From positions 248,001 to 312,000 of the forward strand of contig NZ_JAKWJQ010000003.1 in assembly GCF_022761015.1 (NCBI RefSeq): a stretch of 64,000 nt of DNA, given 5' to 3'. Under the pieces are notes generated by a model. It was not told the DNA's origin. It saw nothing but the letters and a program-made list of their open reading frames with translations, and searched no databases. Shown in pieces: positions 1 to 15,774 of the stretch; positions within the stretch are counted from its first letter, which is position 1, and each line of letters begins with the position of its first letter. Source of the DNA: Humibacter sp. RRB41 (GTDB taxonomy: Bacteria; Actinomycetota; Actinomycetes; Actinomycetales; Microbacteriaceae). The position numbers were made by a program, and so were the translations under genes.

Positions 1-1267
1 GAATAGCGAAAGCCGGGTGCAGCAACGATGCGAATGCGGTCCAGTGCGTGGCTGTGACATCGAGAGATGGGACGAGACCGCGGGCCCCGGTGCCCAGAAT
101 CAAGTACAGAGTGGCGAGGAAGAGGACTGCGACTGCGCCAAGAAGGAACAATATTCTTCCGGACTTTCGCGCCCTGATAATCCAGCCAACAGCCAAAGCC
201 GCGATCAGAGCGCAGATCGTCTGAGGCAGCAGAGTCGCCTTGGCTCCTCCAGCGACGAACGCGATCAGCACGAAAGCCGATAGTTGGGGAAGGCTTACGC
301 GTTTCCGGCTGATGATGACTATTGCGAGCAGTAGCAGCAGATGAAATATCGGTTGCGCGAACGTCTGGGTGGGACTCCTATAGACGCCGAGATTGAGGCT
401 CGCGACCTGGATGAGGGGGTAATGAGTGCCCGCCCACAATGGCGGAGGATTCGTGAAGTACGCGAACCCGGCTCCGAGAACTGCGCCGACCGATGACTTC
501 GTGATCCGATGTGCCAAAGCGGCACAAAGCAGCACAGCGAGGATCAAGAGAGGGATCGTGGCCAGGCGTAAGACGAGAACCGTTAGATCGATCCCCGTCC
601 AACGGGCTGCATCTGCGATGTGGTACGAGACCATCAACTCGTACTTGAGAGGTATGGCTGCAACATTCGGGAAGGTGGTTCCACCATGAAGCACCATTGC
701 TGAGATGGCCTGCTGGAAGTTCATGTCCTCTTGTGGCGCGACCGCGTACCACTGACCGGGCATGCCAGGAATCTGCGAGATCGTGTGGTTCCGCCAGTCG
801 TTGTTGACCACCCACCAACACGCCAGCACGCTGAACGCGGACAGAGCCCAGCCCATCCATGCAGGGGTTTCTGCGGCGTCTGCCTGCGAACGCCACAGGC
901 TCCGGAGCCGGGGACGGACAATGCAGAGGCCCACCACGATGACGATCCAGACCGCGGCTAATCGCGGTACTCCAAACGGCGTGAGCAGCCAAGTCAAGAG
1001 GGTCTGGACGCAGAGCCCGAGTGTAGTTCCTGCAGCGACTTCTTCGAGGAATGACTTGGGATTCGTCCTCAGCATTCGCCATAGCAACGTCCCGGGAATC
1101 GCTGCGAAGACGAGAAGGTACAGCGAGTACAGGAAAACAGAGAGCAACGGTGTGTTGAAGGCAACGAACATCACCAGCGTGGCGACGTAGCCGACTATGG
1201 CGGGGACCCATCGCACAAGCCGATGGCCCCACTGAGGGAGCAGCGAATGCCGGTCGACGATCGACAC
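1..1267 (-). CDS. Polytopic membrane protein of the surface-glycan cluster, 3' part cut by window edge
   Basis: An open frame on the minus strand runs off the left edge of the window and is read here from a GTG at 1267, 24 bp after the legC stop. About 420 residues are visible. They are strongly hydrophobic, with roughly nine likely membrane helices. A larger polar stretch (about residues 125-185, containing QEDMNFQQAISAM and KYELMVSYHIADA) sits between helices and probably lies outside the membrane. The layout resembles large actinobacterial membrane proteins of polysaccharide loci (DUF6541-like or GT-C-like), but no catalytic motif was recognised, so this is a guess. It follows legC closely and is probably co-transcribed. 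Its base composition is visibly less GC-rich than the core genes to the right, which fits a transferred glycan locus. The 5' start is uncertain because no clear ribosome site was seen. Confidence 0.7.
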   Translation of the reverse strand, partial: MSIVDRHSLLPQWGHRLVRWVPAIVGYVATLVMFVAFNTPLLSVFLYSLYLLVFAAIPGTLLWRMLRTNPKSFLEEVAAGTTLGLCVQTLLTWLLTPFGVPRLAAVWIVIVVGLCIVRPRLRSLWRSQADAAETPAWMGWALSAFSVLACWWVVNNDWRNHTISQIPGMPGQWYAVAPQEDMNFQQAISAMVLHGGTTFPNVAAIPLKYELMVSYHIADAARWTGIDLTVLVLRLATIPLLILAVLLCAALAHRITKSSVGAVLGAGFAYFTNPPPLWAGTHYPLIQVASLNLGVYRSPTQTFAQPIFHLLLLLAIVIISRKRVSLPQLSAFVLIAFVAGGAKATLLPQTICALIAALAVGWIIRARKSGRILFLLGAVAVLFLATLYLILGTGARGLVPSLDVTATHWTAFASLLHPAFAI

Positions 1268-1291: not shown

Positions 1292-2509
1292 CTACCGAAG
1301 TTGAGAAAGGAACTCGAGCGCGACGTCGATGACGCGGTCCTGCTCGGCATCCGTGAGGTCGTACGAACAGGGTAATGACAGTCCGCGGTTGAAGATGTCT
1401 TCGGCGACCGCGCCGCCGAGCTGCGCAGACCCCTGCCACGGTGGCTGCATGTGCAGCGGGCGCCAGAGCGGGCGTGAGCCGATCTGCGCCTCCCCCATGT
1501 GCTTCCAGAGCGCATCCCGATACTCGGTGCCGATGCCCGCGGGTGCGAGCACCGAGTACAGCCAGTAGGTTGCGTCGAAGCCCGGGACACGCGGCGGGGC
1601 AGTGATCGCCGTACCGGCGAACGCCTTGTCATAGCGGCGCGCGACGTGTGCGCGTCGTGCTTTCAGCTCATCGAGACGGTCGAGTTGCGCAAGGCCGAGC
1701 GCGGCTGCGATGTTGGTCAGGCGGTAGTTGTATCCGACCTCGTCGTGCAGGTACCCGATGTCTGGCACCTTGGCTTGCGTGGAGAGGTGCTTTGCCCGCG
1801 CGGCAAGGTCGGCGTCGTCGGTGACCAGCATCCCGCCGCCGCCTGCCGTGGCGATTTTGTTGCCGTTGAAGGAGAAGGCGCCGATGGTGCCGATGGTGCC
1901 GGTGTGGCGACCGGCGAAGGCGCCGTCGCTCCATGTGGCGCCGAGCGATTCTGCGGCGTCTTCGACAATGGCGATGCCGTTGCTCAGGCAGAACTCGACC
2001 AGGCGGTCGATCCGCGCGGGCTGACCGAGAATGTGCACGGGCTCGACCACTGCGGGTAGCGCCTCACCCTTGCGCTTCCGGTTCTCCAATGCCTCGATGA
2101 GCAGGTCCTGGTCCAAGCACCACGTCTCGCGGTCGGAGTCGACGAGCAACGCGTTTGCACCCACGTACGCGACCGGATTGCTGGAGCCGACGAAGGTGAA
2201 GTCCGGAACGGCGATATCGGCGCCGCGCGGAACGTCGAGCGCGGCGAAGGCCAGGTGGATCGCGGCGGTGCCGCTCGTGCAGGCGACGGCGTACTTCGAG
2301 CCGACCAGTTCGGCGAACGTGTGCTCGAACTCCGCGACATACGGACCGACGGACGAGACGAATCCCGACTTCACGGCGTCGGTCACTCGTGCCACTTCGT
2401 GGTCTGTGATGGTAGGGACGGCGAGCGGGATGAACGGCAGATCGGAGTTCGCCGTCTCCGCTCGAGGAGTGTTTCCCCAGGAGGCGCTGTCTGAACTCTG
2501 GGCGCTCAT
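1292..2509 (-). CDS. legC: DegT/DnrJ/EryC1/StrS sugar aminotransferase, LegC-like
   Basis: A 405-residue PLP-dependent aminotransferase, predicted to put an amino group on C4 of the 4-keto-6-deoxy sugar nucleotide made by LegB. Fold-type I signatures are visible: GTAAIHLAF near residue 80, the PLP-contacting Asp in VEDAAES (184), and the Schiff-base Lys 218 in SFNGNKIATAGGG. The N-terminus (PFIPLAVPTITDHEV) is like the LegC branch. The start at 2509 is chosen because ATG overlaps the legB stop by four bases (ATGA); a longer frame to 2557 would overlap legB by more than 50 bp. Position between legB and the legG/legI group supports the legionaminic rather than another sugar role. Other amino-sugar aminotransferases of the family cannot be excluded from sequence alone. 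Confidence 0.85.
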   Translation of the reverse strand: MSAQSSDSASWGNTPRAETANSDLPFIPLAVPTITDHEVARVTDAVKSGFVSSVGPYVAEFEHTFAELVGSKYAVACTSGTAAIHLAFAALDVPRGADIAVPDFTFVGSSNPVAYVGANALLVDSDRETWCLDQDLLIEALENRKRKGEALPAVVEPVHILGQPARIDRLVEFCLSNGIAIVEDAAESLGATWSDGAFAGRHTGTIGTIGAFSFNGNKIATAGGGGMLVTDDADLAARAKHLSTQAKVPDIGYLHDEVGYNYRLTNIAAALGLAQLDRLDELKARRAHVARRYDKAFAGTAITAPPRVPGFDATYWLYSVLAPAGIGTEYRDALWKHMGEAQIGSRPLWRPLHMQPPWQGSAQLGGAVAEDIFNRGLSLPCSYDLTDAEQDRVIDVALEFLSQLR

Positions 2510-3495
2510 CGGTGGTAGATCCCCGCGGTGGTCGCATCGACCCGGCCGCGCAGCCACTCGGCAGTCGCTCGCAAGCCGTCTTCGAGCGAAGTCTGCGGTG
2601 TCCAGTCGAGCACTTCAGCTGCTTGGCTGGGGTCGGACAGCAGAATCTCGACTTCCGAGCCAGCCGGACGGAACCGGTCCTCGTCGGTTGTCACCGTCGC
2701 CGTCGATCTCGTTGCCTCGAGGCACATCTCGAATGTCTCGCCGATCGACACCGTGCGCCCCGTTCCGAGCTGCACCACCGTGCCGGGCGTGAGATCCTTC
2801 GTCGCAGCGCGCACGAAGCCGTCGGCGGTGTCGGCGACGAAGGTGAAGTCCCTCTTCGGTGACAAAGCGCCCAGGTGAACCTCGGTTGCCCCGGCAAGGA
2901 GCTGGTTGAGGATGGTGGGGATGACAGCTCGCATCGATTGGCGAGGGCCGAACGTGTTGAAAGGACGCAGTACCGTGACTGGCGTCTCGAACGATAACGC
3001 GTAGGACTCGCACATCTTGTCCGCACCGATCTTCGATGCCGAGTATGGCGACTGCCCGCGCAGCGGGTGAGTGACAGTGATCGGAACGGACTCTGGTGTG
3101 CCGTAAACCTCGGAGGTCGAGGTGTGCACCATGCGCGGCGTCCCTTCCGCGCGGACCGCCTCGAGCACGTTGAGCGTGCCGGTGATGTTCGTGTCGACGT
3201 AAGAACGCGGTGCCACGTACGAGTACGGGATCGCGATGAGCGCTGCAAGGTGCAGCACGACGTCGACGCCCTTGACCAGCGTGTGCACATACTCTGCATC
3301 GCGGATGTCCGCGAGTCTCACATCGAGGTCGTCGCGGATCGGCGACTCGTCGAGCCAGCCGGCCGACCCGTTGGAATTGTAGAGACACATTGCTCGCACG
3401 TTCGCGCCGTCGCGAACGAGGCGTTCGACGAGGTGGCTGCCGATGAAGCCGTCCGCTCCGGTCACCAGAACGGTCTTACCGGCAATCGCACTCAC
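2506..3495 (-). CDS. legB: Extended SDR NAD-dependent sugar-nucleotide 4,6-dehydratase, LegB-like
   Basis: A 329-residue extended SDR enzyme. It carries the Rossmann motif GADGFIG (residues 13-19) and the active-site YSASK (Tyr151, Lys155) after a TSTSEVYG strand. In the Campylobacter legionaminic pathway LegB is a GDP-GlcNAc 4,6-dehydratase giving the 4-keto-6-deoxy intermediate used by LegC. The GTG at 3495 is the preferred start: it overlaps the ptmE stop by four bases (GTGA) and has AGGGGAAA just upstream. The frame stays open to 3564, but that extension would lie inside ptmE. The last bases overlap legC, so dehydratase and aminotransferase are translationally coupled. Nucleotide specificity (GDP or UDP) is inferred only from the neighbouring PtmE-type nucleotidyltransferase. 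Confidence 0.85.
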   Translation of the reverse strand: MSAIAGKTVLVTGADGFIGSHLVERLVRDGANVRAMCLYNSNGSAGWLDESPIRDDLDVRLADIRDAEYVHTLVKGVDVVLHLAALIAIPYSYVAPRSYVDTNITGTLNVLEAVRAEGTPRMVHTSTSEVYGTPESVPITVTHPLRGQSPYSASKIGADKMCESYALSFETPVTVLRPFNTFGPRQSMRAVIPTILNQLLAGATEVHLGALSPKRDFTFVADTADGFVRAATKDLTPGTVVQLGTGRTVSIGETFEMCLEATRSTATVTTDEDRFRPAGSEVEILLSDPSQAAEVLDWTPQTSLEDGLRATAEWLRGRVDATTAGIYHR

Positions 3496-4547
3496 TGATT
3501 TCCCCTTGCTCTCGCCAAGTCGCGAGGTGTTCCGACGTCGATCCAATCCGATTCCATCGACCAAGCCCCAACGGTGAGACCACGCTGGATGCAGGTTTCG
3601 ACAAGCTCTGGCATCGTACTGGGACGGCCTGAGGGCACGAAGCCCAATGCATCGGGCGAGACGACGTAGATTCCAGCATTGGTCTCGACGTCGAGAACAG
3701 GCTTCTCCACAAGTTGAGCGATGTGCCGGTCGGAGCCGCGCTCGACTACGCCGAATGGCACCTGGTGCTCGTAGCGTCGTGTGGCGACGGTCACGGCACT
3801 ACCCATAGCCACATGCGAGTCGATGAATTCACCGACGTCGAATTGCACCATCAGGTCGGCATTCGTCACGACCAGGGGAGCGTCGGGCAGTTCGGCACGG
3901 TCGATCAGCGCGAGGGAGCCCGCCGTTCCCAATGGGGTCTCGGCGTCTTCATGGATGTAATGGATCGTTGCTCCGATGGAGGAGCCGTCGCCGAGGCGCT
4001 CGATGATCTGGTCTGCTAGGTAATTCACCGAGATGTAGAACGTGCGGATGCCGCCACTGATCAGATTGAGTAGAACCCACTCGATGATGGGGCGCCCGGC
4101 GATAGGAACGAGTGGCTTAGGAGTGTGCTGAGTCAGCTCTCCGAGGCGCACGCCACGCCCACCCGCCATCACGACAGCGACGTTGTCGAGCACAGGATGG
4201 CCGACGATATCGCTGAGGGTATGCATACCGATCACCCGGCCGTCGCCGTCTATCACCGGAATCTGCTCGAGCCGCGTGGCCCGCATGACGTCGAGCGCGT
4301 GAGCACGGTTCGTACCCTCCGGCACTGTCGTCGGGTTGCGCGTGGCGCGAGCCAGCGCGGGATCATCGAGCGCCGCGCCGTCGAGGATGGCGTGGCGCAG
4401 GTCGCCGTCGGTGAGTACACCGACCAGAAGTCCATTGTCGACGAGCACCGCGATCTCCAGGCCGTTGCGGTCGATCAGCTTCATCGCATCCCGAATGCTG
4501 GCCGAAGAGCCGAGTGTGTAGTCGGCCACGGTACGGGTTCTATTCAT
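3492..4547 (-). CDS. ptmE: CBS-domain sugar-phosphate nucleotidyltransferase, PtmE-like
   Basis: A 351-residue two-part protein. Residues about 1-115 form a tandem CBS pair (IRDAMKLIDRNG, VLVDNGLLVGVLTDGDLRHA, VIDGDGRVIGMHTLSDI). Residues about 122-350 form a nucleotidyltransferase with the GGRGVRLGELTQHTPKPLVPI signature region and a conserved VTNADLM metal-binding segment. This CBS-plus-transferase arrangement is that of Campylobacter PtmE, the guanylyltransferase that supplies the GDP-glucosamine-type precursor for legionaminic acid. The CBS pair probably senses an adenine nucleotide, which is inference from the family. The ATG at 4547 overlaps the legG stop by 8 bp. The gene marks this pathway as GDP-linked, unlike UDP-based sialic and pseudaminic acid routes. 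Confidence 0.85.
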   Translation of the reverse strand: MNRTRTVADYTLGSSASIRDAMKLIDRNGLEIAVLVDNGLLVGVLTDGDLRHAILDGAALDDPALARATRNPTTVPEGTNRAHALDVMRATRLEQIPVIDGDGRVIGMHTLSDIVGHPVLDNVAVVMAGGRGVRLGELTQHTPKPLVPIAGRPIIEWVLLNLISGGIRTFYISVNYLADQIIERLGDGSSIGATIHYIHEDAETPLGTAGSLALIDRAELPDAPLVVTNADLMVQFDVGEFIDSHVAMGSAVTVATRRYEHQVPFGVVERGSDRHIAQLVEKPVLDVETNAGIYVVSPDALGFVPSGRPSTMPELVETCIQRGLTVGAWSMESDWIDVGTPRDLARARGNQ

Positions 4548-5712
4548 CGTGCAGTGTCTCCTTCTGGTCCGCCCGGCGGATCACACGAGCGTCGAGATCA
4601 CGGAAGCGTTTCGGCCCAGCCGGGCGCCGGATCTGCAAGATCAATTCGGCGATGCGCGCGGCGGCCCGCCCGTCGCCGTAAGGGTTCATCGTACCGTGGG
4701 GGTGGGGGCTCGCCAGCGCCCGCTGAACGCCCGCCTTCACGTTCTCGCGTCCGTCGTCGACGTGGGTGACGGTGGCTGCACGCAATCGCCCGGTTTGACG
4801 AGTGCCGACGTCGACAGCCGGTACGTTCACCGTGGCGGCTTCGATGATGCCCGACGATGAGTTGCCGACAACGACGTCGCAGGCAGCGAGCACACGCGGA
4901 TACCGAGCGCCAAGTGCTGGCACTGCAACGACATTCGGGAGCGTCTCTACCGCGGTGAGCAAGGCGTCACGTACGGCATAGCCACCGGGGTCCGGCCCAG
5001 GGTGGGTGACGATCACGGTTGCGGCAGCGTCGGCGGTTCCCAGCAATGCATCGACCGCCCCGTGCACCATCTCCGCGACCGACTCGGTCGTGACCGGGTG
5101 ATAAGTGAACAGCGCCAACGGCCTTCGAAGATCGACGCCAAGAGCCGATGCAATCTCGGCATCCGAAAGCGGGGTGGCTTCGGCGAGACGATCGAGCCCA
5201 GGGGCTCCGGTGACGTGCACCGTTGCCGGATCTTCTCCCATCTGCACGAGACGGTCCATGGCATCCGTGGAGGCCACGCAGTGCACGTCGGACAGCTTGG
5301 TGATCGCGTGCCGGACGCGCTCGTCGATGGCGCCCTCAGTGACCTCTCCACCGTGAAGATGCACGACGGGTACCCGAGCGAGCACCGCAGGCATCACCAC
5401 CCAAGGCAGCTCCCAGCGATCTCCGAGCACCACGAGGACCTCGATGGTGTCCAGCACCTCCGCGATGCCCTGGGACAGGGCTGCACCGGTACGAGCGGCA
5501 TCCGCCGGGGTATCGCCTACGAGTCGCGGGCCGATAGCGCGAACGACAACCCGGTTGACCCCGATATCGGCGAGCGCGGCTCCGGCAGACTCCGCGTCGA
5601 ATCCGACGCCCGTGAGCACGAGCAACTCGTGCGCGGCTTCAGCGATCCTGGCGAGGACCGGCCCGAGGGGTCCGAGGTCGGCTCGCCCGGAAACGAAGAC
5701 CGCGACAGTCAT
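4540..5712 (-). CDS. legG: Hydrolysing sugar-nucleotide 2-epimerase, LegG/NeuC-like
   Basis: A 390-residue enzyme of the non-phosphorylating UDP-GlcNAc 2-epimerase family (NeuC/LegG). It is expected to remove the nucleotide while inverting C2, giving the free 2,4-diacetamido-trideoxy-mannose type sugar for LegI. Visible family motifs are GDRWELPWVV, HLHGGEVTEGAIDE (near residue 115), the phosphate-binding YHPVTTES, and the C-terminal VVGNSSSGIIEA. The start at 5712 (MTVAVFVSGRADLG) overlaps the legI stop by four bases; the frame is open to 5880, but that segment is Arg-rich and lies inside legI. Its partner downstream is ptmE. Whether the leaving group is GDP or UDP cannot be read from the sequence. 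Confidence 0.88.
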   Translation of the reverse strand: MTVAVFVSGRADLGPLGPVLARIAEAAHELLVLTGVGFDAESAGAALADIGVNRVVVRAIGPRLVGDTPADAARTGAALSQGIAEVLDTIEVLVVLGDRWELPWVVMPAVLARVPVVHLHGGEVTEGAIDERVRHAITKLSDVHCVASTDAMDRLVQMGEDPATVHVTGAPGLDRLAEATPLSDAEIASALGVDLRRPLALFTYHPVTTESVAEMVHGAVDALLGTADAAATVIVTHPGPDPGGYAVRDALLTAVETLPNVVAVPALGARYPRVLAACDVVVGNSSSGIIEAATVNVPAVDVGTRQTGRLRAATVTHVDDGRENVKAGVQRALASPHPHGTMNPYGDGRAAARIAELILQIRRPAGPKRFRDLDARVIRRADQKETLHDE

Positions 5713-6746
5713 TCGGCCGTGACTGCGTCCGGAACGAGAGCATCGCCTGTCGCGACCGCGCGCGTGGTCGTACGGCCGACGATGTCCACGGCGACCGAGA
5801 CGCCTGTCTCCGGGCGCAGGGCGATCACGTCGTCGGTGGAGATGACATGCCCGGCCGGCAAGTCTCGGCGCACATGCCACGAGCGGCGAACCAAGGGAGC
5901 GTTCTCGAACTCGCTCGGCATCCGCCGCTTCTTGCCGTCGCCGAGCATCTGCACGGCGGTGCTGACATCGCTGATGTACTCCGCCAATTCTTCTGGCTCG
6001 AGGCTGGCTGCGTGGTCCGGACCAGGCGCAGTGGAATCGAGCGTGAAATGCTTCTCGAAGATGCGTGCGCCGAGTGCCGCGGAGGCGACCGCCGCCGTCG
6101 ATCCGGCCGTATGGTCAGACCAGCCGACCGGCACGTCGAACTGCTCGGCCATCGCGGGAATAGCCAACAGATTGCAATCCTCGAACGGAGCGGGATAGGC
6201 CGAGACGCAATGGAACAGCGCACGGCCCGGCGCGGCCGCGGCCGCTTCGAGCGCCGCACCGACCTCGTCGAGGCTTGCCATACCGGTGGAGATCAGCAAT
6301 GGAACGCCCAACTCGGCAAGACGACGGATGAAGGCGAGATTGGTGAGTTCGCCGGAGGGAACTTTGAGTGCCGGCACCCCGAGTTCGAGCAGCAGGTCGG
6401 CGCTGGCCAGGTCGAACGGTGTCGAGAGGAAAAGCAGACCCTTCTCGCTGGCATGATCCGACAACTCGCGCCATGCACTGCGCGGCAGTGAGAGCGCTTG
6501 GAGCAACTCGGACTGCGACGATGACCCCGTCGCGCGCTCCTGGTAGGGAGCAGAAGACGTGTTCTCCGCGACCAGCGAACTCGCTTCGAAGGTCTGGAAT
6601 TTGACGGATCCGGCTCCGGCCTCTGCCGCGACGTCGATGAGAGTGTGGGCCTTAGCGACATCGCCGTCGTGGTTGACGCCGGCTTCGGCGATGACGAACG
6701 GCAGATCCCCACCCAAAAGGTGGTTCCCGACGGTGATTGTTTCCAC
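5709..6746 (-). CDS. legI: N-acetylneuraminate/legionaminate synthase family, LegI-like
   Basis: A 345-residue NeuB-family synthase, expected to condense phosphoenolpyruvate with the free diacetamido-hexose to make the nine-carbon acid. The N-terminal TIM barrel begins FVIAEAGVNHDGDV and continues with the substrate segment AGSVKFQTF. The metal and PEP region includes GWSDHTAGSTAA. The C-terminal 65 residues form an antifreeze-like/SAF domain (RRDLPAGHVISTDDV) that closes the active site of the partner subunit. Length is normal for the family. The ATG at 6746 lies 17 bp after the legH stop, and the 3' end overlaps legG by four bases. NeuB, LegI and PseI are hard to separate by eye; the LegI call rests on the legB/legC/ptmE neighbours. 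Confidence 0.9.
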   Translation of the reverse strand: METITVGNHLLGGDLPFVIAEAGVNHDGDVAKAHTLIDVAAEAGAGSVKFQTFEASSLVAENTSSAPYQERATGSSSQSELLQALSLPRSAWRELSDHASEKGLLFLSTPFDLASADLLLELGVPALKVPSGELTNLAFIRRLAELGVPLLISTGMASLDEVGAALEAAAAAPGRALFHCVSAYPAPFEDCNLLAIPAMAEQFDVPVGWSDHTAGSTAAVASAALGARIFEKHFTLDSTAPGPDHAASLEPEELAEYISDVSTAVQMLGDGKKRRMPSEFENAPLVRRSWHVRRDLPAGHVISTDDVIALRPETGVSVAVDIVGRTTTRAVATGDALVPDAVTAE

Positions 6747-6763
6747 AGCGACCCTTCGCTCGG

Positions 6764-7408
6764 TCAGACGGATTTCGGATCTGTGCCCGCGCGGCGATGC
6801 GGATGTGCTGGTACTCCACTGACTACAGCCCCCGCGGGGACATCTCGCACGACCACACTACCGGCACCGACCATCGCACCTGCGCCCACGCTGACGGAGG
6901 GCAATACGACGGCCCCAGCACCGACCAAGGCGCCTTGGCCGATGCTGGCCCCTCCCAGGAGTCGTGCGCCGGGTGCGACGTGAACGTGGTCGTCGATGAC
7001 GACGTCGTGTTCGACGACGGCAGCGGTGTTGATGATCACCCCGCGGCCGATACGAGCGCCGGGTCCGACGTGGGCGTGTTCCAGGACTTGGCTTCCGTCG
7101 CCGAGCGTGCCACCGACGGTGGCCGTAGATGCGATGACGGTGGCGAGGGTGAGACCCATTCCGTCAGCCAGCGCGAGCTCTCGCGCACGCACCGTGTTGT
7201 CGCCAATGGCTACCGTGAAGGACCCGGCCAGCGCTCGGTCATCAAGATCGGCGACTTCCGAAACGACAGTGACGCTCCAGCCTGACGGAATGAAGGGATC
7301 GACGACGGCGAGCAGCGGAATGCCGCTGCGAGCAGCAACGTCGGCGATCGACCGCGCGTGGCCACCACCGCCCAGGATCACGAGACCAGAGCTCGGCACG
7401 TCTGACAT
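6764..7408 (-). CDS. legH: NeuD-type left-handed beta-helix acyltransferase, LegH-like
   Basis: A 214-residue protein. The N-terminal part (LVILGGGGHARSIADVA, residues 8-24) is the nucleotide-like PglD/NeuD fold. From about residue 95 it shows hexapeptide repeats (LGDGSQVLEHAHVGPGARIG and later turns) forming a left-handed beta-helix that binds acetyl-CoA. The His in VVEHDVVIDDHVHV is where the catalytic His of PglD-type enzymes is expected. In the pathway it acetylates the 4-amino group made by LegC. The start at 7408 is fixed by a TACTAT -10 box six bases upstream and by the family N-terminus; the frame is open far upstream but there lies over the divergent gene. It is the first gene of the leftward operon. 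Confidence 0.85.
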   Translation of the reverse strand: MSDVPSSGLVILGGGGHARSIADVAARSGIPLLAVVDPFIPSGWSVTVVSEVADLDDRALAGSFTVAIGDNTVRARELALADGMGLTLATVIASTATVGGTLGDGSQVLEHAHVGPGARIGRGVIINTAAVVEHDVVIDDHVHVAPGARLLGGASIGQGALVGAGAVVLPSVSVGAGAMVGAGSVVVRDVPAGAVVSGVPAHPHRRAGTDPKSV

Positions 7409-7414
7409 ATGGCC

Positions 7415-7420
7415 ATAGTA
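7415..7420 (-). promoter_or_regulatory. -10 element of the leftward leg operon (leaderless)
   Basis: TACTAT lies exactly six bases before the legH ATG, so the transcript should begin at the start codon itself. No Shine-Dalgarno is present. The divergent ptmF-like gene starts 88 bp away and has its own TACTCT at 7446-7451, so this gap probably drives both halves of the cluster. Confidence 0.55.
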
Positions 7421-7496
7421 TGGCGGGGCGGAATGCGACCAGCGGTACTCTGTGCCCCGCCCGCCCCCGAAACAGACACGAAGAGGTCCGCGCTCG

Positions 7497-8504
7497 GTGA
7501 TCAACACAGCTGCTGTCCGCGGCACCGGCTCGATCGGTTCTCGGCACCTGAGGGTGCTGCGTTCGATCGGGGTGGTGGATCTGGTTGCGGTTCCGGTACG
7601 TGACGGCCGGTCATCCTCTCCGGAACTGGCGGGTGCGCGCATCGCCGACGCGGTGCCCCAAGGGGCCGACCTCGTGGTCGTGGCGACGGATACTGCTCGC
7701 CACATACAGGACGCGATCGAGGCATTGGATGCCGGTGCCGGCTTGGTCCTGGTGGAGAAGCCCTTGGCCCGCTCGACAGCGGAAGTCGAGGCCCTCGAAG
7801 CGCACCCACGGCGGGACCGCGTGCGCGTGTGCGCGCCCTTGCGTTTCCACGAAGGCCTGCGCGCCGCACGCGCGGCCGTCGGAAGGCTCAGCGGCACAGA
7901 GCCGTTTGCGGCGTCGGTGCGCATCGTCTCGCAGAGCTGGCTGCCTCATTGGCGTCCGGACCGCGACTACCGCGAGTCGTATTCTGCCCGCCAGGGTGAG
8001 GGCGGTGTACTGCTCGACCTGGTGCACGAGATCGACTACGCGCTGTGGACCTTCGGACACCCATCGGGGCCGCTGGGGGCAACTCTCTCTCCGGTGCCTT
8101 CGCCCGTTCTCGGGCTCATGGTCGAGGAGGCGGCAGACTTGACTTGGGAAAGTGCTGACGGGTCGCAGGTCTCGATGCGCCTGGACTACGTGACCCGTCC
8201 GATAGCACGGTCGATGCACGTCACCTCTCCGAACGGATCGGTGCGATGGGATGCGATCGCTTCCCGTGTCGAGACCGTCACCGTTGACGGTGAGGTTCGC
8301 AGCACCGACTATCCAGACGATCTGGACCGCGACGCGGTGCTCGCCCGGCAGGCCAGAGCACTCTCGGGAGTCTTGGAAGGCCGAAGCGAAGACGGCCTTC
8401 TCGACCTCGCGACCGCACGGCTCGCGGTCGAGGTCACCGAACGAGCCCGAGCCGTCGGGTGGCGCAAACTGGACGGGTCGTATCGACATTCAGAGAGGCC
8501 CTGA
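7497..8504 (+). CDS. Gfo/Idh/MocA-family oxidoreductase, PtmF-like
   Basis: A 335-residue NAD(P)-dependent oxidoreductase. The Rossmann motif GTGSIGSRHLRVL lies at about residues 9-21, and the family Lys appears in VLVEKPLARS (about residue 87). The C-terminal half forms the expected substrate domain (GEGGVLLDLVHEIDYALWTFG). A gene of this family (PtmF) sits in the Campylobacter legionaminic locus next to legF and ptmA, the same order as here, and is thought to act early in precursor formation. The GTG at 7497 is preferred over an ATG-equivalent at 7452 because of the family N-terminus and an AAGAGG about ten bases upstream. It ends one base before legF begins. Substrate is unproven. Confidence 0.8.
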   Translation: MINTAAVRGTGSIGSRHLRVLRSIGVVDLVAVPVRDGRSSSPELAGARIADAVPQGADLVVVATDTARHIQDAIEALDAGAGLVLVEKPLARSTAEVEALEAHPRRDRVRVCAPLRFHEGLRAARAAVGRLSGTEPFAASVRIVSQSWLPHWRPDRDYRESYSARQGEGGVLLDLVHEIDYALWTFGHPSGPLGATLSPVPSPVLGLMVEEAADLTWESADGSQVSMRLDYVTRPIARSMHVTSPNGSVRWDAIASRVETVTVDGEVRSTDYPDDLDRDAVLARQARALSGVLEGRSEDGLLDLATARLAVEVTERARAVGWRKLDGSYRHSERP

Positions 8505-8505
8505 C

Positions 8506-9252
8506 TTGAGCAGCAAGATCCTCGCCGTCATCCCGGCACGAGGCGGTTCGAAGGGACTGCCTGGCAAGAACCTGCTGCCGCTCGCGGGTGTTCCCTTGAT
8601 CGGCTACGCGATTGCCTGCGGCGAGGCGCTCCCGTCGGTTGCCCGCACCATCGTCACGACCGACGACCGGGGGATCGCGAACACGGCTCGGGCTCTCGGA
8701 GGTGATGTGCCGTTCATTCGCCCTGCAGAGCTGGCTCAAGACGACACACCGATGGCACCGGTCATCCAACACGCGCTCGCCGAGGTCGAACGCCAAGAGG
8801 GTGTGTCATACGACGGTGTGCTGCTACTCGACCCGACCAGTCCAGCGCGAGATCCGCATCATATCGACCAGGCGATTTTGCAGTTCGATGCACGGCCCGA
8901 CCTCGACGGCGTCGTCGCCGTGTCCGCACCGTTCTTCGACCCGCTCTGGGTCGGGATCGAAGAAGCCGAGGACGGAACCATGCGTCGCTTCTTTCCGGAG
9001 GCAGCGGGGGTTACGCGGCGACAGGGCAACCCGCGTCGGTACTTGCGTGTCAACGGTTCCTTCTATCTATGGCGTTCAGCGTTCGTCAGACGGCTGAAGT
9101 CCAACTGGCTTGACGAGGGAGTATTCGCCCCATTCGAGATTCCCGAGGCCGAGGCTTTCTCGATCGACGACGAATCCGAGTTCCGCATGATCGAGGCACT
9201 GGCGGCGGGCGGCTTCGTACGGCTTCCCGCCGTGCCAACGGAGGAAACTTGA
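8506..9252 (+). CDS. legF: CMP-nonulosonate cytidylyltransferase, LegF-like
   Basis: A 248-residue enzyme of the CMP-NeuAc synthetase family, expected to activate the nine-carbon acid with CTP. The CTP-binding motif ARGGSKGLPGKNLLPL lies at residues 11-26. Further family landmarks are the LLDPTSPARDPHHI segment and the C-terminal SIDDESEFRMIEAL, which in homologues carries metal-binding Asp residues. The start is TTG at 8506, two bases after the ptmF-like stop and preceded by AGAGAGG; the family N-terminus (ILAVIPARGG) excludes the longer open frame from 8251. Its stop overlaps the next gene by one base. The last enzyme of the cluster, it makes the donor for a glycosyltransferase that is not in this window. 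Confidence 0.9.
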   Translation: MSSKILAVIPARGGSKGLPGKNLLPLAGVPLIGYAIACGEALPSVARTIVTTDDRGIANTARALGGDVPFIRPAELAQDDTPMAPVIQHALAEVERQEGVSYDGVLLLDPTSPARDPHHIDQAILQFDARPDLDGVVAVSAPFFDPLWVGIEEAEDGTMRRFFPEAAGVTRRQGNPRRYLRVNGSFYLWRSAFVRRLKSNWLDEGVFAPFEIPEAEAFSIDDESEFRMIEALAAGGFVRLPAVPTEET

Positions 9253-10064
9253 TGACTGTCTCACGCCCATTGCGCGATCTCATGTCCCTCGATGGCCGAA
9301 CCGCGGTGGTGACCGGTGGTGCGGGCCCATTGGGGTCTGTGCTGTCCTCGACTCTCGCTGAATTGGGTGCTCGCGTCGTCGTCATCGATCTGGACGAGGG
9401 TGCGAGCCAGGCCACGGCGGATGCACTAGACGAGGTATTGGTTGGACCGCACCTCGGCATCGGTGCGAACCTCATGGAAGCCGGTGTGGCGTCGCGGATC
9501 GTCGACGAAGTCGAACGCGTCGCGGGTGGCTTGGACATCATCGTCAACAACGCTGCGTTCACCGGGACCAGTGGTGTGCCCGGATACGCGGTGCCGTTCG
9601 ACGAGCAGACTGACGAGGCATTCCTTTCAGCAGCCCAACTGAACTTGCTCGCGCCGTTCTCCCTCGTGAGGACGGCGCTTCCCCTGCTCCGAGCATCGAC
9701 GCACGGCTCCGTTGTCAACGTCAGTTCGATCTATGGGCTTGTGGGGCCGAACATGCGGCTCTATGACGGGACGTCGATGGGGAATCCCGCGGCGTACGGT
9801 GCCACCAAGGGCGGAATCGCCCAGCTCACGCGCTACCTGGCGACCGTCATGGCGCCGGGGGTACGCGTGAACGCGATCGCTCCTGGCGGTATTGCGCGCG
9901 GGCAAGATGAACAATTCGTACAGCGTTACGAGGCATTGACCCCCTTGGGCCGAATGGCCACCGAAGACGACATGCGTGGCGCCGTGGCGTGGCTGGCAAG
10001 CGACGCCGCAGGCTACGTCACGGGGCAGGTCATCGCGATCGATGGCGGCTGGACAGCCTGGTGA
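9252..10064 (+). CDS. ptmA: Short-chain dehydrogenase/reductase, PtmA-like
   Basis: A 270-residue classical SDR. The cofactor motif GGAGPLG is near residue 23, NNAA appears near residue 97, the catalytic Ser lies in NVSSIYG, and YGATKGG supplies Tyr and Lys. The C-terminus AIDGGWTAW is typical for the family. PtmA of Campylobacter, encoded beside legF, is an SDR of this type. Its exact reaction is not settled, although it is thought to act early in the pathway. The ATG at 9252 overlaps the legF stop (TGATG) and has GAGGA seven bases upstream. The gene ends 77 bp before the convergent stop of the polymerase-like gene; no strong terminator was found there. Confidence 0.8.
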   Translation: MTVSRPLRDLMSLDGRTAVVTGGAGPLGSVLSSTLAELGARVVVIDLDEGASQATADALDEVLVGPHLGIGANLMEAGVASRIVDEVERVAGGLDIIVNNAAFTGTSGVPGYAVPFDEQTDEAFLSAAQLNLLAPFSLVRTALPLLRASTHGSVVNVSSIYGLVGPNMRLYDGTSMGNPAAYGATKGGIAQLTRYLATVMAPGVRVNAIAPGGIARGQDEQFVQRYEALTPLGRMATEDDMRGAVAWLASDAAGYVTGQVIAIDGGWTAW

Positions 10065-10141: not shown

Positions 10142-11479
10142 CTAGCCTGCATCGGTCGGCTCCGGCGCCGCCGGCAGCGCCTGCCGCCACGACATGCCCT
10201 GCGACGCCTTCACCGTGCAGATGACCAGCAGCATCCAGCCGCCGTCGTAGAGAATCGTGCTCTCGGCCATCGCCGTGCCGATCAGTGCGATGAGCACGAG
10301 CGGCGGCCAGGCGTAGATGACGCTGCGCTTGTTGGAACCGAGCAGCCAGGATCGGAACATCGCGAGCCCGAGCAGCAGCAGGAAGAGCAGGAATCCGACG
10401 AGGCCGACCTGCAGCCAGACATCCAGGAACGCGTTCAAGCCGTTGGCGTGCGGAGCGCCGGTCGCCGCGTTGATGAGCGAATAGGGCGGCAGGGAGCCTC
10501 GCCAGAAGCCGATCCAGCCCCAGCCGAGCAATGGGTTCGTCGGAATGAGGTGCCAGATCTGGATCCACACGTCGTACCGCACCGTGATCACGCTCTCGCC
10601 GTGCAGCAGGTCGATGATGGGTGCCCTGAAGATGAAGGCGAGAACGGCGACCGCAGTCGAGAAGACGCCGAGCACGATCTGCACGTAGAAACGCCAGCGC
10701 TCGCTGCGGATGTGTCTGAGCCCGAACAGCGCAGCGCTCGCCAGCACCACGATGACGAGCATGATCGCGATGACGGGAGAGCTGGAGAACACCAGGCACA
10801 GGGCCGCCACCAGCACCGAGAACGATGCCATAAGCAGTGACACCGACTTCGTGCGCCATTCGATGATGAACGTCACAGCTGCGATGAGTGCGACGAGCCC
10901 CAGCTGGTTGCGACTTCCGAAGAGTCCGGAGATGGGTCCGCCGTGCGCGAGGTTGCCGGCGATGCCCAGGAACTTGATCGGCATGTCGATCAGCAGCCCG
11001 CTCAGAACCTCGAGGGCGAGGGATGCCGTGAGCAGCACCCGCAGAACGTCGCCGATCACGCGCACGATCTGGATCGCATCCCGCACCAGCGCCAGATAGA
11101 CAGCCAGGAACGCGAACAGCACCTGGTACAGCACGGCGGCGAGGGTCGCCCACTGGTAGACGCTCCAGATGACGGACACGGCGCACCAGCCGACGAACAG
11201 CAACAGCGACACCGGCAGCAGTCCGTGCCACTCGATGGCGGGCCAGTGCGCGATGAAGGAGCCGGCCGCGAGCACGACGAGTGCGCCGAGCACGCCGATG
11301 AGGCCGGGCCATCCGATGACGTCGCGAATGGCGGTCGTCAGGAAAGCGACACCCACGATGCACAGCGACAGCGCACGGGAGAACTTGGCCGACTCGAACA
11401 GTGCGCGCGTCAACGCGAACCATTGCGGCACGCGTCGCGGTTGAGCCATGCGGATGTCTGACCCCTCGTCGGTGTTCAC
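10142..11479 (-). CDS. O-antigen polymerase/ligase-like membrane protein (Wzy_C type)
   Basis: A protein of about 445 residues with ten or more hydrophobic segments. A large polar loop before the last helices carries the pattern NPLLGWGWIGFW...GAPHANGLNAFLDVWLQVGLVGF, the Wzy_C/O-antigen ligase signature. Such proteins polymerise repeat units or attach glycans to a membrane or wall acceptor. GTG 11479 is chosen because GGAG lies five bases upstream; ATG 11449 (MAQPRRVPQ) is an in-frame alternative. The long open frame extending to 12895 is not one gene: its first half is a shadow of the next gene. It is a distant paralogue of the neighbour at 11614-12960, with which it shares the same C-terminal motif, and sits next to the legionaminic cluster. 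Confidence 0.8.
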   Translation of the reverse strand: MNTDEGSDIRMAQPRRVPQWFALTRALFESAKFSRALSLCIVGVAFLTTAIRDVIGWPGLIGVLGALVVLAAGSFIAHWPAIEWHGLLPVSLLLFVGWCAVSVIWSVYQWATLAAVLYQVLFAFLAVYLALVRDAIQIVRVIGDVLRVLLTASLALEVLSGLLIDMPIKFLGIAGNLAHGGPISGLFGSRNQLGLVALIAAVTFIIEWRTKSVSLLMASFSVLVAALCLVFSSSPVIAIMLVIVVLASAALFGLRHIRSERWRFYVQIVLGVFSTAVAVLAFIFRAPIIDLLHGESVITVRYDVWIQIWHLIPTNPLLGWGWIGFWRGSLPPYSLINAATGAPHANGLNAFLDVWLQVGLVGFLLFLLLLGLAMFRSWLLGSNKRSVIYAWPPLVLIALIGTAMAESTILYDGGWMLLVICTVKASQGMSWRQALPAAPEPTDAG

Positions 11480-11519
11480 GGGCGCTCCAAGTTTATGGTG
11501 CGGCCGGTCTGCGTTCCGC

Positions 11520-11604
11520 GGGTTGAGGAGCTCCGCGTAGCGGCGCGTCTCGAAACCCCGGCGCCGGGTTTCGAGACGCGCGCCTGCGGCGTGCTCCTCA
11601 ACCC
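11520..11604. repeat. Long palindromic intergenic repeat, copy A
   Basis: An 85 bp near-palindrome between the two polymerase-like genes. The outer arms are GGGTTGAGGAG (11520-11530) and its complement (11594-11604). The inner arms are a perfect 16 bp pair, GCGCGTCTCGAAACCC (11543-11558) and its complement (11566-11581), around a 7 nt loop. A related element lies at 15632-15746. It could act as a transcription terminator or be a mobile REP-like element. Confidence 0.85.
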
Positions 11605-11613
11605 ACGAGGTGC

Positions 11614-12960
11614 CTACGGGCGGTCGACCTTCGTCTTGATGCTGAACGCGACGAGCAGGGCGAAGCCCGCCTCGATGAGCATGCGGCTCTCGGTGACCGA
11701 TTGCGCGATCGCGGCGGCCATCATCAGCAACGGAAGCAGCGTGATCGCCGTGTAGCGCACATCCGATCGCACGACGCCTGCTGAATCGAACGGCGCTCGG
11801 TCGACAGCCATGAACCAGGTGCGACCGAATGTGGAGAGCACGAGCAGCGCGAAGAACACGAGACCGACGATGCCGATCTGCAGCCAGACATCCAGATACG
11901 CGTTGTGCGCCTGCAGGTACTCGACCTTGTTGCGGATGGCCAGTCCCTTGAACGGCTCGACCCACGGTGCCCAGTAGCTGACCCAGCCCCATCCGAAGGC
12001 CGGCTTCTGCTGTGCCAGCTGGATGACCTTGTCCCAGATATCGGTGCGCCCGGTGAGATCGGAACTCTTGCCCAGCAGGGCGGTGAGGTTGCTCCAGAAC
12101 AGCACGACGGATGCCACGCCCACCACGAGCACGGCCACCGCCGTCGCGTAGACAGGCACCCGCTTGCTCTGCGGTACCGCGCGTCCCCACAGGGCGAACA
12201 GCAGCACCACGATCACGACCGCGAGCGCGGCGATCACCGTGGACGACCGCGTGAGCAGGAACGTGATGCCGGCCAGTGCGAGCCACACGATGCCGGCGGT
12301 GCGGTTGACGACGCGGTCGGCGAGCTGGATGCCGAACACGATGATCGCGAACAGCGTGATCATGCCGAGGATGTCGCTGTTGCCGACGATGCCCTGGATC
12401 TTGCCTCCATGGAACAGCAGGTCCCGGCTCCAGTAGAAGGCGTCGGGCAGCTTGCCTGACGGGTACTGGTACGTCGTGAAGAACGGCAGCAGTGGCTTGC
12501 GCACGAAGATCGAGACGATCAGCTCGAAGAGGAGCGACAAGACGATGATCCATCGGAACGCGGCGCCGAGCGCGCGGAGGATCTGCTGCCAGGTCAGGCA
12601 GAGCGCGAAGAACGCGCCGGCGGTCGCGGTGGCCAGTTGCGCCACGACGCCGATCACGCTCTCGGCGCGGTAGGCGGACCAGGCGATCGAGACGACACAG
12701 AGCAGCAGGAAGAGCAGCAACGTCTTCGGCCACTTGCGAATCGGCACGCGCGGCCTGGTGCGCACCAGGAACACGATGCTGACGACCAGGCAGAGGAACA
12801 CGACGATTCCCCAGCCGTACCAGCTGATGCTGTTGCGCCAGAAGTCGCCCGCGAACAGCGTGAACAACATGAATCCGGCGAACGCCAGCTTCCAACCCTG
12901 GCCGGAGGGAACGGTGAGCGGCGTCTTCGCCGGCCGGGTCTCGAGGCTCATGAGACTCAC
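11614..12960 (-). CDS. O-antigen polymerase/ligase-like membrane protein (Wzy_C type), second copy
   Basis: A 448-residue protein with about ten to twelve membrane helices. The Wzy_C region near residue 330 contains KPAFGWGWVSYW and, further on, AHNAYLDVWLQIGIVGL, which match the motif of the neighbouring gene almost position for position. Like that gene it probably joins or transfers glycan units outside the membrane. The GTG at 12960 is taken as start (AGGG about nine bases upstream); the ATG at 12951, three codons in, is possible. The two paralogues are separated by the palindromic repeat at 11520-11604, so they may be transcribed separately. No initiating glycosyltransferase or flippase is visible beside them. 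Confidence 0.8.
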   Translation of the reverse strand: MSLMSLETRPAKTPLTVPSGQGWKLAFAGFMLFTLFAGDFWRNSISWYGWGIVVFLCLVVSIVFLVRTRPRVPIRKWPKTLLLFLLLCVVSIAWSAYRAESVIGVVAQLATATAGAFFALCLTWQQILRALGAAFRWIIVLSLLFELIVSIFVRKPLLPFFTTYQYPSGKLPDAFYWSRDLLFHGGKIQGIVGNSDILGMITLFAIIVFGIQLADRVVNRTAGIVWLALAGITFLLTRSSTVIAALAVVIVVLLFALWGRAVPQSKRVPVYATAVAVLVVGVASVVLFWSNLTALLGKSSDLTGRTDIWDKVIQLAQQKPAFGWGWVSYWAPWVEPFKGLAIRNKVEYLQAHNAYLDVWLQIGIVGLVFFALLVLSTFGRTWFMAVDRAPFDSAGVVRSDVRYTAITLLPLLMMAAAIAQSVTESRMLIEAGFALLVAFSIKTKVDRP

Positions 12961-12980
12961 TGTAATGGCCCTCGATTGTG

Positions 12981-13010
12981 CTCCCTGAGCGAGCGAAGCG
13001 AGTCGAAGGG
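12981..13010. repeat. Short CCCT...AGGG intergenic repeat motif
   Basis: The segment contains GAGCGAGCGAAGCGAG between CCCT and AGGG and is partly self-complementary. It lies between the acyl-CoA dehydrogenase stop and the start of the polymerase-like gene, both on the minus strand, and may be a weak terminator. Only one copy was seen in the window. Confidence 0.4.
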
Positions 13011-13021
13011 CCGAACGCCGA

Positions 13022-14200
13022 CTACACGAATGCGGCGACGCCGGTGATCGCGCGGCCCACGATGAGGGTGTTCATCTCGCGGGTGCCCTCGTACGAGTAG
13101 ACGGCTTCCGCGTCGTTGAAGAACCGGGTGACGTCGTAGTCCAGCACGATGCCGTTTCCGCCGAAGATCTCGCGGGCCCATGCAACGGTCTCGCGCATGC
13201 GGGAGGTGGTGAACGCCTTCGCGAGGGCGGAGTGCTCGTCGCGCTGGGTGCCGGCGTCGAGCATCCGTGACACCTGCACGACGATGCCGAGGGATGCCGT
13301 GATATTGCCCAGCGACTTCGCCAGCAGATCCTGTACGAGCTGATGCGACGCGATCGGCTTGCCGAACTGGATGCGCTCCGCCGCGTACTTCACGGCCGCC
13401 TCGTACGCACCGACGGCGACGCCGACCGCGGCCCACGCCACCTCGGCGCGGGTGGCGCGCAGCACCTTCGCGGTGTCGCGGAACGAGTTCGCGTTCTGCA
13501 ACCGCAACGACTCGGGGACGCGCACGTTCTCGAGCGTGATGTCCGCGTTCTGCACGGCACGCAGCGCCTGCTTGCCCTCGATCTTCGTCGCGGTGTAGCC
13601 GGACGTCTCGGTGGGCACGATGAACCCCTTGACCTGGCCGTCGGCGACATCCTTCGCCCAGATGATGGTGATGTCGCTGAACGTGGCGTTGCCGATCCAG
13701 CGCTTCGAGCCGTTGATGACCCACTCGTCGCCCTGGCGCTCCGCTGTGGTGCGCAGACCCTGTGCCGAGTCGGAACCGGAGAGCGGCTCGGTGAGCCCGA
13801 ACGCTCCGATGATCTCGCCGGAGGCCAGCTTCGGCAGCCACTCATCCCGCTGCGCCTGCGATCCGCAGGCGCTGACGGCGCCTGCGGCGAGTCCGTTCTG
13901 CACGCCGACGTACGTGGCGACGGATGCGTCGACGCGCGCGAGTTCCAACGCCACGAACCCGCGGAACACGGCCGAATTCGGGAACGGCTTCGTCTCATCC
14001 CAGGCGAAGGCCGCCACCCCGAGTCGGTGCAGCTCGGGGATGACCTGCTTCGGGAACTCCGCACGCTCCCAGTACTCGTTCGCGATCGGCTTCACCTCGG
14101 TCTCGAGGTAGGAGCGCAGCGCTGCGATCGCGTCCTTCTCCTGGTCGGTGAGCTCGTTTTCGAACCCGTAGAAGTCCGCCGCGAGAGGCTCGAATGCCAT
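13022..14200 (-). CDS. Acyl-CoA dehydrogenase, glutaryl-CoA dehydrogenase-like
   Basis: A 392-residue flavoenzyme that oxidises an acyl-CoA and passes electrons to ETF. It shows the FAD/substrate segments GAFGLTEPLSGSDSAQ (about residue 130) and WVINGSKRWIGNA, and the C-terminal YSYEGTREMNTLIVGRAITG. The last motif, with Glu in YEGT, is the position of the catalytic base in the glutaryl-CoA dehydrogenase branch, so a glutaryl-CoA-like substrate is favoured. The ATG at 14200 has GGAG five bases upstream. The open frame continues to 14590, but that part is Arg/Ser-rich and overlaps manA on the other strand. It is divergent from manA with 113 bp between starts and unrelated in function to its neighbours. 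Confidence 0.88.
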   Translation of the reverse strand: MAFEPLAADFYGFENELTDQEKDAIAALRSYLETEVKPIANEYWERAEFPKQVIPELHRLGVAAFAWDETKPFPNSAVFRGFVALELARVDASVATYVGVQNGLAAGAVSACGSQAQRDEWLPKLASGEIIGAFGLTEPLSGSDSAQGLRTTAERQGDEWVINGSKRWIGNATFSDITIIWAKDVADGQVKGFIVPTETSGYTATKIEGKQALRAVQNADITLENVRVPESLRLQNANSFRDTAKVLRATRAEVAWAAVGVAVGAYEAAVKYAAERIQFGKPIASHQLVQDLLAKSLGNITASLGIVVQVSRMLDAGTQRDEHSALAKAFTTSRMRETVAWAREIFGGNGIVLDYDVTRFFNDAEAVYSYEGTREMNTLIVGRAITGVAAFV

Positions 14201-14278
14201 GACTGCTCCATTGCTAGATAGGGGTTTGCAAGACTCGGCCAGCCTAGGCAGCGGCATCCGGGCGCCCAAGGCGATTGG

Positions 14279-14284
14279 TACTCT
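14279..14284 (+). promoter_or_regulatory. -10 element for manA
   Basis: TACTCT fits the actinobacterial TANNNT pattern and would start a transcript near 14290. This leaves a leader of about 24 nt holding the purine-rich AAAGGGCGGG ribosome site of manA. Confidence 0.4.
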
Positions 14285-14313
14285 GCGACTACCAGAAGAA
14301 AGGGCGGGTGCGG

Positions 14314-15609: not shown

Positions 15610-15631
15610 CCCTCCGAACTGCCACGCTCCC

Positions 15632-15746
15632 TCGTGGGTTGAGGAGCACGCGGTACCACCGCGCGCGTCTCGAAACCCGCGCTACGGCATTCAGACGCGA
15701 GACAGGTTTCGAGACGCGCGCCTTCGGCGTGCTCCTCAACCCACGA
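15632..15746. repeat. Long palindromic intergenic repeat, copy B
   Basis: A 115 bp palindrome between manA and galE. The outer arms are a perfect 19 bp pair (15632-15650 and 15728-15746, reading TCGTGGGTTGAGGAGCACG). The inner arms are a perfect 16 bp pair (15662-15677 and 15705-15720, CGCGCGTCTCGAAACC). A 27 nt centre remains. It shares the GGGTTGAGGAG and GCGCGTCTCGAAACC blocks with 11520-11604. Confidence 0.88.
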
Positions 15747-15768
15747 CAGGGACGATCCACACTGACGA

Positions 15769-15774
15769 TAGGTT
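15769..15774 (+). promoter_or_regulatory. -10 element of galE (leaderless)
   Basis: TAGGTT lies seven bases before the galE ATG and no Shine-Dalgarno is seen, so the mRNA probably starts at or next to the start codon. Confidence 0.45.

Follow-up and report, generated by a model that had tools for sequence, protein, structure and literature searches.

A predicted legionaminic acid cassette occupies the slot of a pseudaminic acid cassette at a putative surface-glycopolymer locus of Humibacter

Introduction

The closest described counterpart of the genes studied here is the Campylobacter pathway to CMP-legionaminic acid (CMP-Leg). It shares its enzyme families, the gene order ptmF-legF-ptmA, and a CBS-nucleotidyltransferase PtmE with a nine-gene cassette at positions 1292 to 10064 of a 64,000-nucleotide stretch of the Humibacter sp. 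RRB41 genome (the window). Unlike the Campylobacter genes, the window cassette has a Gram-positive host, is arranged as two divergent operons, and has genes for polymer export and transfer as neighbors, and its LegB, LegC, and LegI form an actinobacterial group. A legionaminic acid (Leg) pathway that includes ptmA, ptmE, and ptmF is also reported in Plesiomonas (PMC4481668). Leg is known from Gram-positive bacteria as well: two papers describe a Leg derivative on Clostridium botulinum flagella (PMC13317340) and Leg in an Enterococcus heteropolysaccharide (PMC12413058). However, these hosts are Bacillota and the acceptors are different.

The teichulosonic acid polymers known from actinomycetes contain ketodeoxynonulosonic acid (Kdn) or pseudaminic acid (Pse). 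Nonulosonic acid genes next to an ABC-2 polymer exporter are the mark of a teichulosonic acid locus. Teichulosonic acid genes are reported in Streptomyces coelicolor (SCO4873-SCO4882; PMC13011467), and teichulosonic acid is reported in Kribbella (PMC6113628). The window genome likewise joins nonulosonic acid and polymer export genes in an actinobacterium and also has a second, Kdn-type gene pair on another contig (C1), but its acid is predicted to be Leg.

A third comparison is offered by the actinobacterial Pse loci of a congener (G003) and of four genomes that belong to a different family of the same order (G568, G637, G678, and G764). There, the same genes for an ABC exporter, a family 2 glycosyltransferase (GT2), a fusion protein with a family 4 glycosyltransferase domain (GT4 fusion), and a 342-amino-acid (aa) protein stand side by side. 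The window genome differs from these loci in that the Leg cassette replaces PseI-PseGH-PseF-PseB-PseC and that genes for GtrA, a further GT2, a short-chain dehydrogenase/reductase (SDR), and a 787-aa protein are added; G003 and G637, in turn, carry two GT4-fusion copies. To our knowledge, few CMP-Leg or CMP-Pse transferases have been characterized, and the basis of their sugar choice is not settled. We found no literature joining Leg and Microbacteriaceae, and no title on Leg in an actinobacterial wall polymer, in a search that had most subscription journals outside its reach.

Exchange of cassettes at a conserved locus

The Leg cassette fills the slot that holds a Pse cassette in the congener, between conserved flanks. 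This exchange between Leg and Pse cassettes at one conserved locus is newly found here. On the left, G003 positions 110002 to 133439 align as DNA with window positions −24476 to −3756, and on the right, G003 positions 141485 to 145999 align with window positions 10164 to 16093, both in gapped pieces of 66 to 85% identity. Window coordinates left of position 1 are positions in L003, the sequence extending left of the window, minus 15000, and the right side of the window was studied up to about 16 kb. The interval between the flanks measures 8.0 kb in G003 and 13.9 kb in the window genome. In G003, it contains a Kdn-type NeuB/NeuA-phosphatase pair together with PseGH, a PseF-like gene, PseI, PseB, and PseC. 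PseB and PseI score above their model cut-offs, PseC is 2 bits short, PseG also falls short of its own, and the only matches of the PseF-like gene are to general models of CMP-sugar synthetases. The corresponding interval of the window genome contains GtrA, GT2, an epimerase-like (SDR) gene, the gene for the 787-aa protein, and the Leg cassette. The 787-aa protein (2 to 1267, minus strand) is an open frame whose C-terminal side is cut by the window edge; it belongs to the swapped island rather than to the sugar pathway, had no Pfam match, and was not assigned to a family.

In G568, G637, G678, and G764, five Pse genes (PseI, PseGH, PseF, PseB, and PseC) come no more than about 4 kb after the module of exporter, GT2, GT4-fusion, and 342-aa genes, and they are 58 to 78% identical to their G003 counterparts. 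In G637, a second GT4-fusion copy stands between this module and the Pse genes. Searches with the 342-aa protein and the C-terminal domain (C-domain) of the GT4 fusion are blind to the sugar genes; they returned six other genomes or records, and Pse genes lay within 10 kb in all six. The C-domain was present in 5 of 248 genomes of the order (the window genome, G568, G637, G678, and G764; G003 is outside that listing), and the 342-aa protein in 2 of 150 genomes of the family (its own and G003) and in one record of the plasmid collection, from Nonomuraea gerenzanensis, where PseB, PseC, PseI, and a PseF-like gene are less than 10 kb away. No relative was found in viral contigs. Taken together, we think that positions 1292 to 10064 are probably an intact CMP-Leg cassette within a surface-glycopolymer locus, placed in the congener's Pse slot, with Leg being transferred to a polymer exported by the ABC-2 transporter.

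Genes and families of the cassette

All nine reading frames of the cassette are present, each ends in a stop codon, and none has an internal stop. The nine adjacent genes proposed from the sequence alone were thus confirmed as intact and close-packed; gene ends are our own start calls, and some are shifted compared to those of that first reading. Six genes lie on the minus strand. The legC gene (1292 to 2509) encodes a 4-aminotransferase, with a TIGR04181 score of 362.8 bits (curated cut-off, 420) versus 241.6 for PseC, and legB (2506 to 3495) an NAD-dependent 4,6-dehydratase, with a TIGR04180 score of 421.8 bits (curated cut-off, 475) versus 58.8 for PseB. Next come ptmE (3492 to 4547) and legG (4540 to 5712), the latter for a hydrolyzing nucleoside diphosphate (NDP)-sugar 2-epimerase with a NeuC_NnaA (TIGR03568) score of 271.2 bits, above the cut-off of 235.9; PseG was not among the family-model matches listed for LegG. 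The legI gene (5709 to 6746) encodes a nonulosonic acid synthase with a SAF domain, supported by NeuB and SAF Pfam matches, by its tree, and by a NeuB_NnaB score of 358.5 bits (curated cut-off, 399.65) versus 255.1 for PseI. The last of the six, legH (6764 to 7408), encodes a PglD/NeuD-family acetyltransferase with 176.5 bits to the NeuD/PglB/VioB model (TIGR03570; cut-off, 160.8). With the chosen starts, successive genes from legC to legI (legC, legB, ptmE, legG, and legI) have overlaps of 4 to 8 bases, and legH is 17 bases from legI.

On the opposite strand (plus) are ptmF (7497 to 8504; open from 7452), for a GFO/IDH/MocA oxidoreductase (PF01408, E 4.6e-7); legF (8506 to 9252), for a CMP-nonulosonic acid synthetase identified by PF02348 (CTP_transf_3), Protein Data Bank (PDB) matches, and its tree; and ptmA (9252 to 10064), for a short-chain dehydrogenase (PF13561). 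The top NCBIfam match of LegF is PseF, at 103.5 bits, half of the cut-off of 205.7, and its top PDB matches are CMP-NeuNAc synthetases. The order ptmF-legF-ptmA had been called the Campylobacter order, and we saw it in Campylobacter volucris (L200) and a Campylobacter metagenome-assembled genome (MAG; L173), both with legI-legG-ptmE-ptmF-legF-ptmA.

LegB, LegC, LegG, and LegH are clear assignments. PtmE showed the two CBS stretches and the NTP_transferase domain that had been described for it, a layout that suggests a GDP-linked donor route; by homology, it would form a GDP-sugar. The predicted functions of the nine genes span all committed steps to CMP-Leg, and CMP-Leg is the best-supported product of those considered, by homology, in line with the first proposal. 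In such a route, PtmE would make GDP-GlcNAc, which LegB would dehydrate, LegC aminate, and LegH acetylate. LegG would remove GDP with 2-epimerization, LegI would condense the sugar with phosphoenolpyruvate to give Leg5,7Ac2, and LegF would make CMP-Leg, with PtmF and PtmA as putative upstream helpers. The 1121-aa GT4 fusion, with an HP motif in its C-domain, and the adjoining 342-aa protein may then add Leg to a cytoplasm-made polymer, and the nearby ABC-2 transporter would export the Leg-bearing product.

Trees and origin of the Leg genes

We placed the Leg proteins in trees from which near-duplicates had been removed by hand: 52 for LegI (87 of 139 rows used), 45 for LegF (59 of 104), and 9 for LegC (47 of 56, quick method). 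The Campylobacter comparison set held 80 named loci, the best 80 of 96 relatives of the Campylobacter jejuni pseudaminic acid synthase (structure-derived query). Window LegI joined that of G334 (support, 100/100), and G361 and G281 completed a group of four (98/93), all actinobacterial. It fell outside a 36-row PseI clade (100/100), with Neisseria NeuB in another part of the tree, so a branching of LegI with NeuB or PseI, named in the sequence-only reading as grounds for rejecting Leg, was not found. LegB grouped with G281 and G334 (100/100; the G281 protein is 72% identical), and LegC with the same two genomes (SH-aLRT, 98) within the LegC side. LegF, in the corresponding check, could be placed only in part: it lies outside the PseF clade (100/100), next to G145 (94/92), and is not a neighbor of Neisseria NeuA.

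A recent Campylobacter origin of the cassette appears unlikely because LegB, LegC, and LegI group with actinobacteria G334 and G281. The likeness to Campylobacter first pointed out holds for the gene families and part of the order, but not for these trees. The core of the sequence-only reading stands, while its framing of the cassette as a Campylobacter-like curiosity does not. Its actinobacterial setting was borne out by SecY, whose nearest matches in the plasmid collection (best 8 of 96) are from Streptomyces, Nonomuraea, Paenarthrobacter, and Pseudarthrobacter, at 56 to 64%. As a separate observation, locus L192 (7498 to 13621) of a Micrarchaeota MAG has ptmF-legF-ptmA-legI-legG-legC-like genes in a single row, which may be a binning error.

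Exporter and candidate transferases

The first reading had placed no user of CMP-Leg in the window and had pointed to the genes left of position 1. There, about 4 to 11 kb away, we found candidate transferases and an ABC exporter, which are newly found here. Family matches identify a GT2 and, at −10831 to −9031, an ATPase of the ABC-transporter type and an ABC-2 permease. The 1121-aa protein (−8077 to −4712) has an N-terminal GT4 domain and the C-domain with the HP motif (L003 8837 to 10285), and the 342-aa protein (−4713 to −3685) had no Pfam match. The pairing of nonulosonic acid genes with an ABC-2 polymer exporter at one locus is of the teichulosonic type. The exporter proteins are 94 and 89% identical between the window genome and G003, and 64 to 79% to those of the other family, as kinship predicts.

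Within the C-domain, H383-P384, S425, and E430 are invariant among 12 aligned relatives. One paper gives (K/R)XHP as the motif common to sialyltransferases and retaining Kdo transferases (PMC12887879). Comparison by hhalign of the C-domain family with seven PF07388 polysialyltransferase-family proteins gave a probability of 64.6 and an E of 6.3e-5 (one comparison) over 83 columns spanning HP...STxL. The C-domain thus has the HP and STxL region in common with the PF07388/GT38 polysialyltransferases, but it is fused to GT4, is below the family cut-offs, and has A in place of K/R in the motif. Two C-domain relatives lie beside legF in each of two Leg loci (G485 and G830), a biased sample in that both loci were picked for their Leg genes, and one of these relatives matches PF07388 with an E of 0.0012, below the cut-off. 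No PF07388 match was found in the window genome at E 1e-8. Alignments of the C-domain and the 342-aa protein matched each other with a probability of 15, and profile searches of the PDB with both gave nothing useful. Elsewhere (L246 to L252), all six genomes with PF07388 genes have one at a distance of 1.4 to 4.6 kb from NeuB, which holds for six of the seven matches.

The C-domain falls into two subtypes (split support, 100/99). At 14 columns, the window copy and G003 copy 1 share one fixed residue and six other copies share another, compared to 4 such columns for the next-best pair (near-identical copies aside); most of the differences are at C-domain residues 237 to 244, 279 to 294, and 423 to 424. 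The window C-domain is nearest to G003 copy 1 (72%), while G003 copy 2 is 74% identical to G678 and 71% to the window copy. Unlike the C-domain, the N-terminal GT4 domain of the window protein is nearest to G678 (71%). Only subtype 1 is present in the window genome (Leg at the locus) and only subtype 2 at the four loci with Pse alone; G003, whose locus joins a Kdn-type pair and Pse, has one copy of each. Pse has the L-glycero-L-manno configuration, and Leg and Kdn have D-glycero-D-galacto. The subtype thus tracks the sugar in six genomes, a small sample in which kinship alone could explain the pattern. By our reading, the subtype residues do not extend to the transferase relatives of the G485 and G830 Leg loci, which are more distant, and this argues against a general subtype-sugar rule. 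We put forward as a tentative idea, more doubtful than not, that a modular polymer machine swaps nonulosonic acids across stereo series and that the C-domain represents an undescribed family of CMP-nonulosonic acid transferases, with two subtypes reading stereochemistry. If so, the 14 fixed differences would mark a specificity pocket. In G637 (L216, 4942 to 13336), the two GT4-fusion copies have C-domains that are 98% identical and N-terminal domains that are 78% identical, which suggests gene conversion of the C-domain.

Weighing the explanations

Several results weigh against a Leg cassette serving a polymer transferase of this kind. LegB, LegC, and LegI are all below their curated family cut-offs. 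In the tree, the group next to window LegI is that of actinobacterial Kdn-type synthases rather than that of Campylobacter LegI, with support (86/88) that is not strong. Approximately unbiased (AU) tests of its placement disagree: forcing window and G334 LegI into the Campylobacter-type LegI clade was rejected (p-AU 0.011), while the same constraint was accepted (p-AU 0.29) with three extra actinobacterial LegI-like rows (G361, G281, and G341). Campylobacter and G281 LegF share a clade from which window LegF is absent, and the placement of the latter is otherwise tentative. The C-domain motif of the window genome is APHP, this domain had no Pfam match at E 1, and the best of its scanned relatives reached 18.9 bits against the curated PF07388 cut-off of 23.3, so that the link to polysialyltransferases is weak. 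The predicted structure of an L177 relative of the 342-aa protein has a mean pLDDT of 34. Low GC content at third codon positions (GC3) also marks the transferase genes and those island genes that are not part of the Leg set, and so does not single out the Leg genes; GC3 is 0.83 for G003 PseB.

Among the other explanations, CMP-Leg may be put on a protein such as flagellin, or on a polymer made elsewhere, with the neighboring exporter and transferases serving another glycan. The Leg derivative reported on C. botulinum flagella is a Gram-positive precedent (PMC13317340), but a nonulosonic acid cassette accompanies the exporter-transferase module in all six genomes inspected, the window genome included, with intervening genes in several, and we regard a separate glycan as unlikely. 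It is also conceivable that no Leg is made, with LegB, LegC, and LegH leading to a bacillosamine-type NDP-sugar and LegG, LegI, and LegF to a Neu5Ac-type acid. LegB need not mean Leg, since 4 of the 15 other LegB genomes of the family (G028, G526, G882, and G843) have no NeuB-family gene, and LegI is close to Kdn-type synthases. However, the genes overlap or abut as a single unit, and relatives of legB, legC, ptmE, legG, and legI co-occur in G334, G281, G527, G485, G830, and G832 (tblastn found no legH relative in these six loci), so this split pathway is very improbable.

Two further possibilities concern history. Leg could be the older cassette at the locus and the congener could have gained Pse, in which case the ancestral C-domain subtype could be the one that the window genome has in common with G003 copy 1. 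In the few genomes seen, the module occurs with Pse in G003 and four genomes of the other family, but with Leg only in the window genome, and we take this order of events to be rather unlikely. Recent transfer from a Campylobacter-like Gram-negative bacterium would account for the common ptmF-legF-ptmA order, but with the actinobacterial grouping of LegB, LegC, and LegI, identities to C. jejuni 414 of only 48% (LegB), 33% (LegC), and 41% (LegI), and a cassette GC of 65%, it is hardly credible. A Leg cassette exchanged for Pse at a polymer locus is the reading that we prefer. If true, Leg joins Kdn and Pse as a constituent of actinobacterial surface polymers. The main interest lies in two kinds of nonulosonic acid cassette exchanged within a conserved locus, and in a putative transferase domain whose subtype changes along with the sugar. 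The two congeners, which have the same exporter and related transferases but different nonulosonic acid genes at one locus, make a ready comparison, and the Leg/Pse exchange is a natural test of a building-block change in surface polymers.

Distribution of nonulosonic acid genes and neighboring features

The sequence-only reading took nonulosonic acids to be described mostly in Gram-negative bacteria, a point that our counts qualify. A NeuB-family gene occurs in 50 genomes of the 396 sampled from the phylum and in 15 of the 59 relatives (all samples, including those of family and genus, count the window's own genome), and the window genome has a second synthase. Nonulosonic acid synthases are thus not rare in the phylum. 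At a threshold of E 1e-90 or better, LegB was found in 22 of the 396 phylum genomes. In 4 of these (G000, G281, G334, and G341), a NeuB gene is less than 10 kb away; in 9, it lies farther off or on a different contig; and the other 9 gave no NeuB match. Among 398 genomes of the family, 16 have a LegB of this kind: 8 with NeuB within about 4 kb (G000, G527, G485, G830, G832, G898, G914, and G521), 4 with NeuB farther off or on a different contig (G528, G983, G884, and G945), and the 4 NeuB-free genomes named above. Within the genus, 1 of 5 genomes has LegB, and the LegB proteins of other family members are distant (53 to 58%). Because of these counts in family and genus, Leg clusters in the family are recurrent yet sporadic. 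The LegB-type dehydratases of the NeuB-free genomes (L105, 10201 to 11121; L243; L244; L245) suggest that LegB probably serves another pathway too. In G898 (L235, 3177 to 11550), Pse genes adjoin legB-legC in one locus.

The window genome has two NeuB-family genes, LegI and the gene on contig C1 (about 910 kb), and neither is of the PseI type: the C1 gene scores higher with NeuB than with PseI, and LegI was placed by its tree. No PseI or PseB was detected in this genome, where PseB-model matches reach 58 bits (cut-off, 407.75) and one of them is LegB itself. The C1 gene is part of a second nonulosonic acid locus (L004, 9415 to 12999) with a DUF6716 putative glycosyltransferase, a SAF-less NeuB, and a cytidylyltransferase whose C-terminal part is of the HAD type; the copy of this fusion in G003 matches the Kdn-9-phosphatase family below the cut-off.

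To the right of the cassette, in the conserved flank, are two O-antigen-ligase-like genes on the minus strand. The first (10142 to 11461; 82% to G003) reaches 31.3 bits with Wzy_C, just under the cut-off of 31.7, and the second (11614 to 12960; 78% to G003) is above the cut-off (E 6e-21). Finally, another congener (G001; L119, 9111 to 11357) encodes a 748-aa protein that, as judged by eye, starts with a CBS-like part and continues with a NeuB core and an extra C-terminal domain; its gene adjoins a NeuA-like gene.

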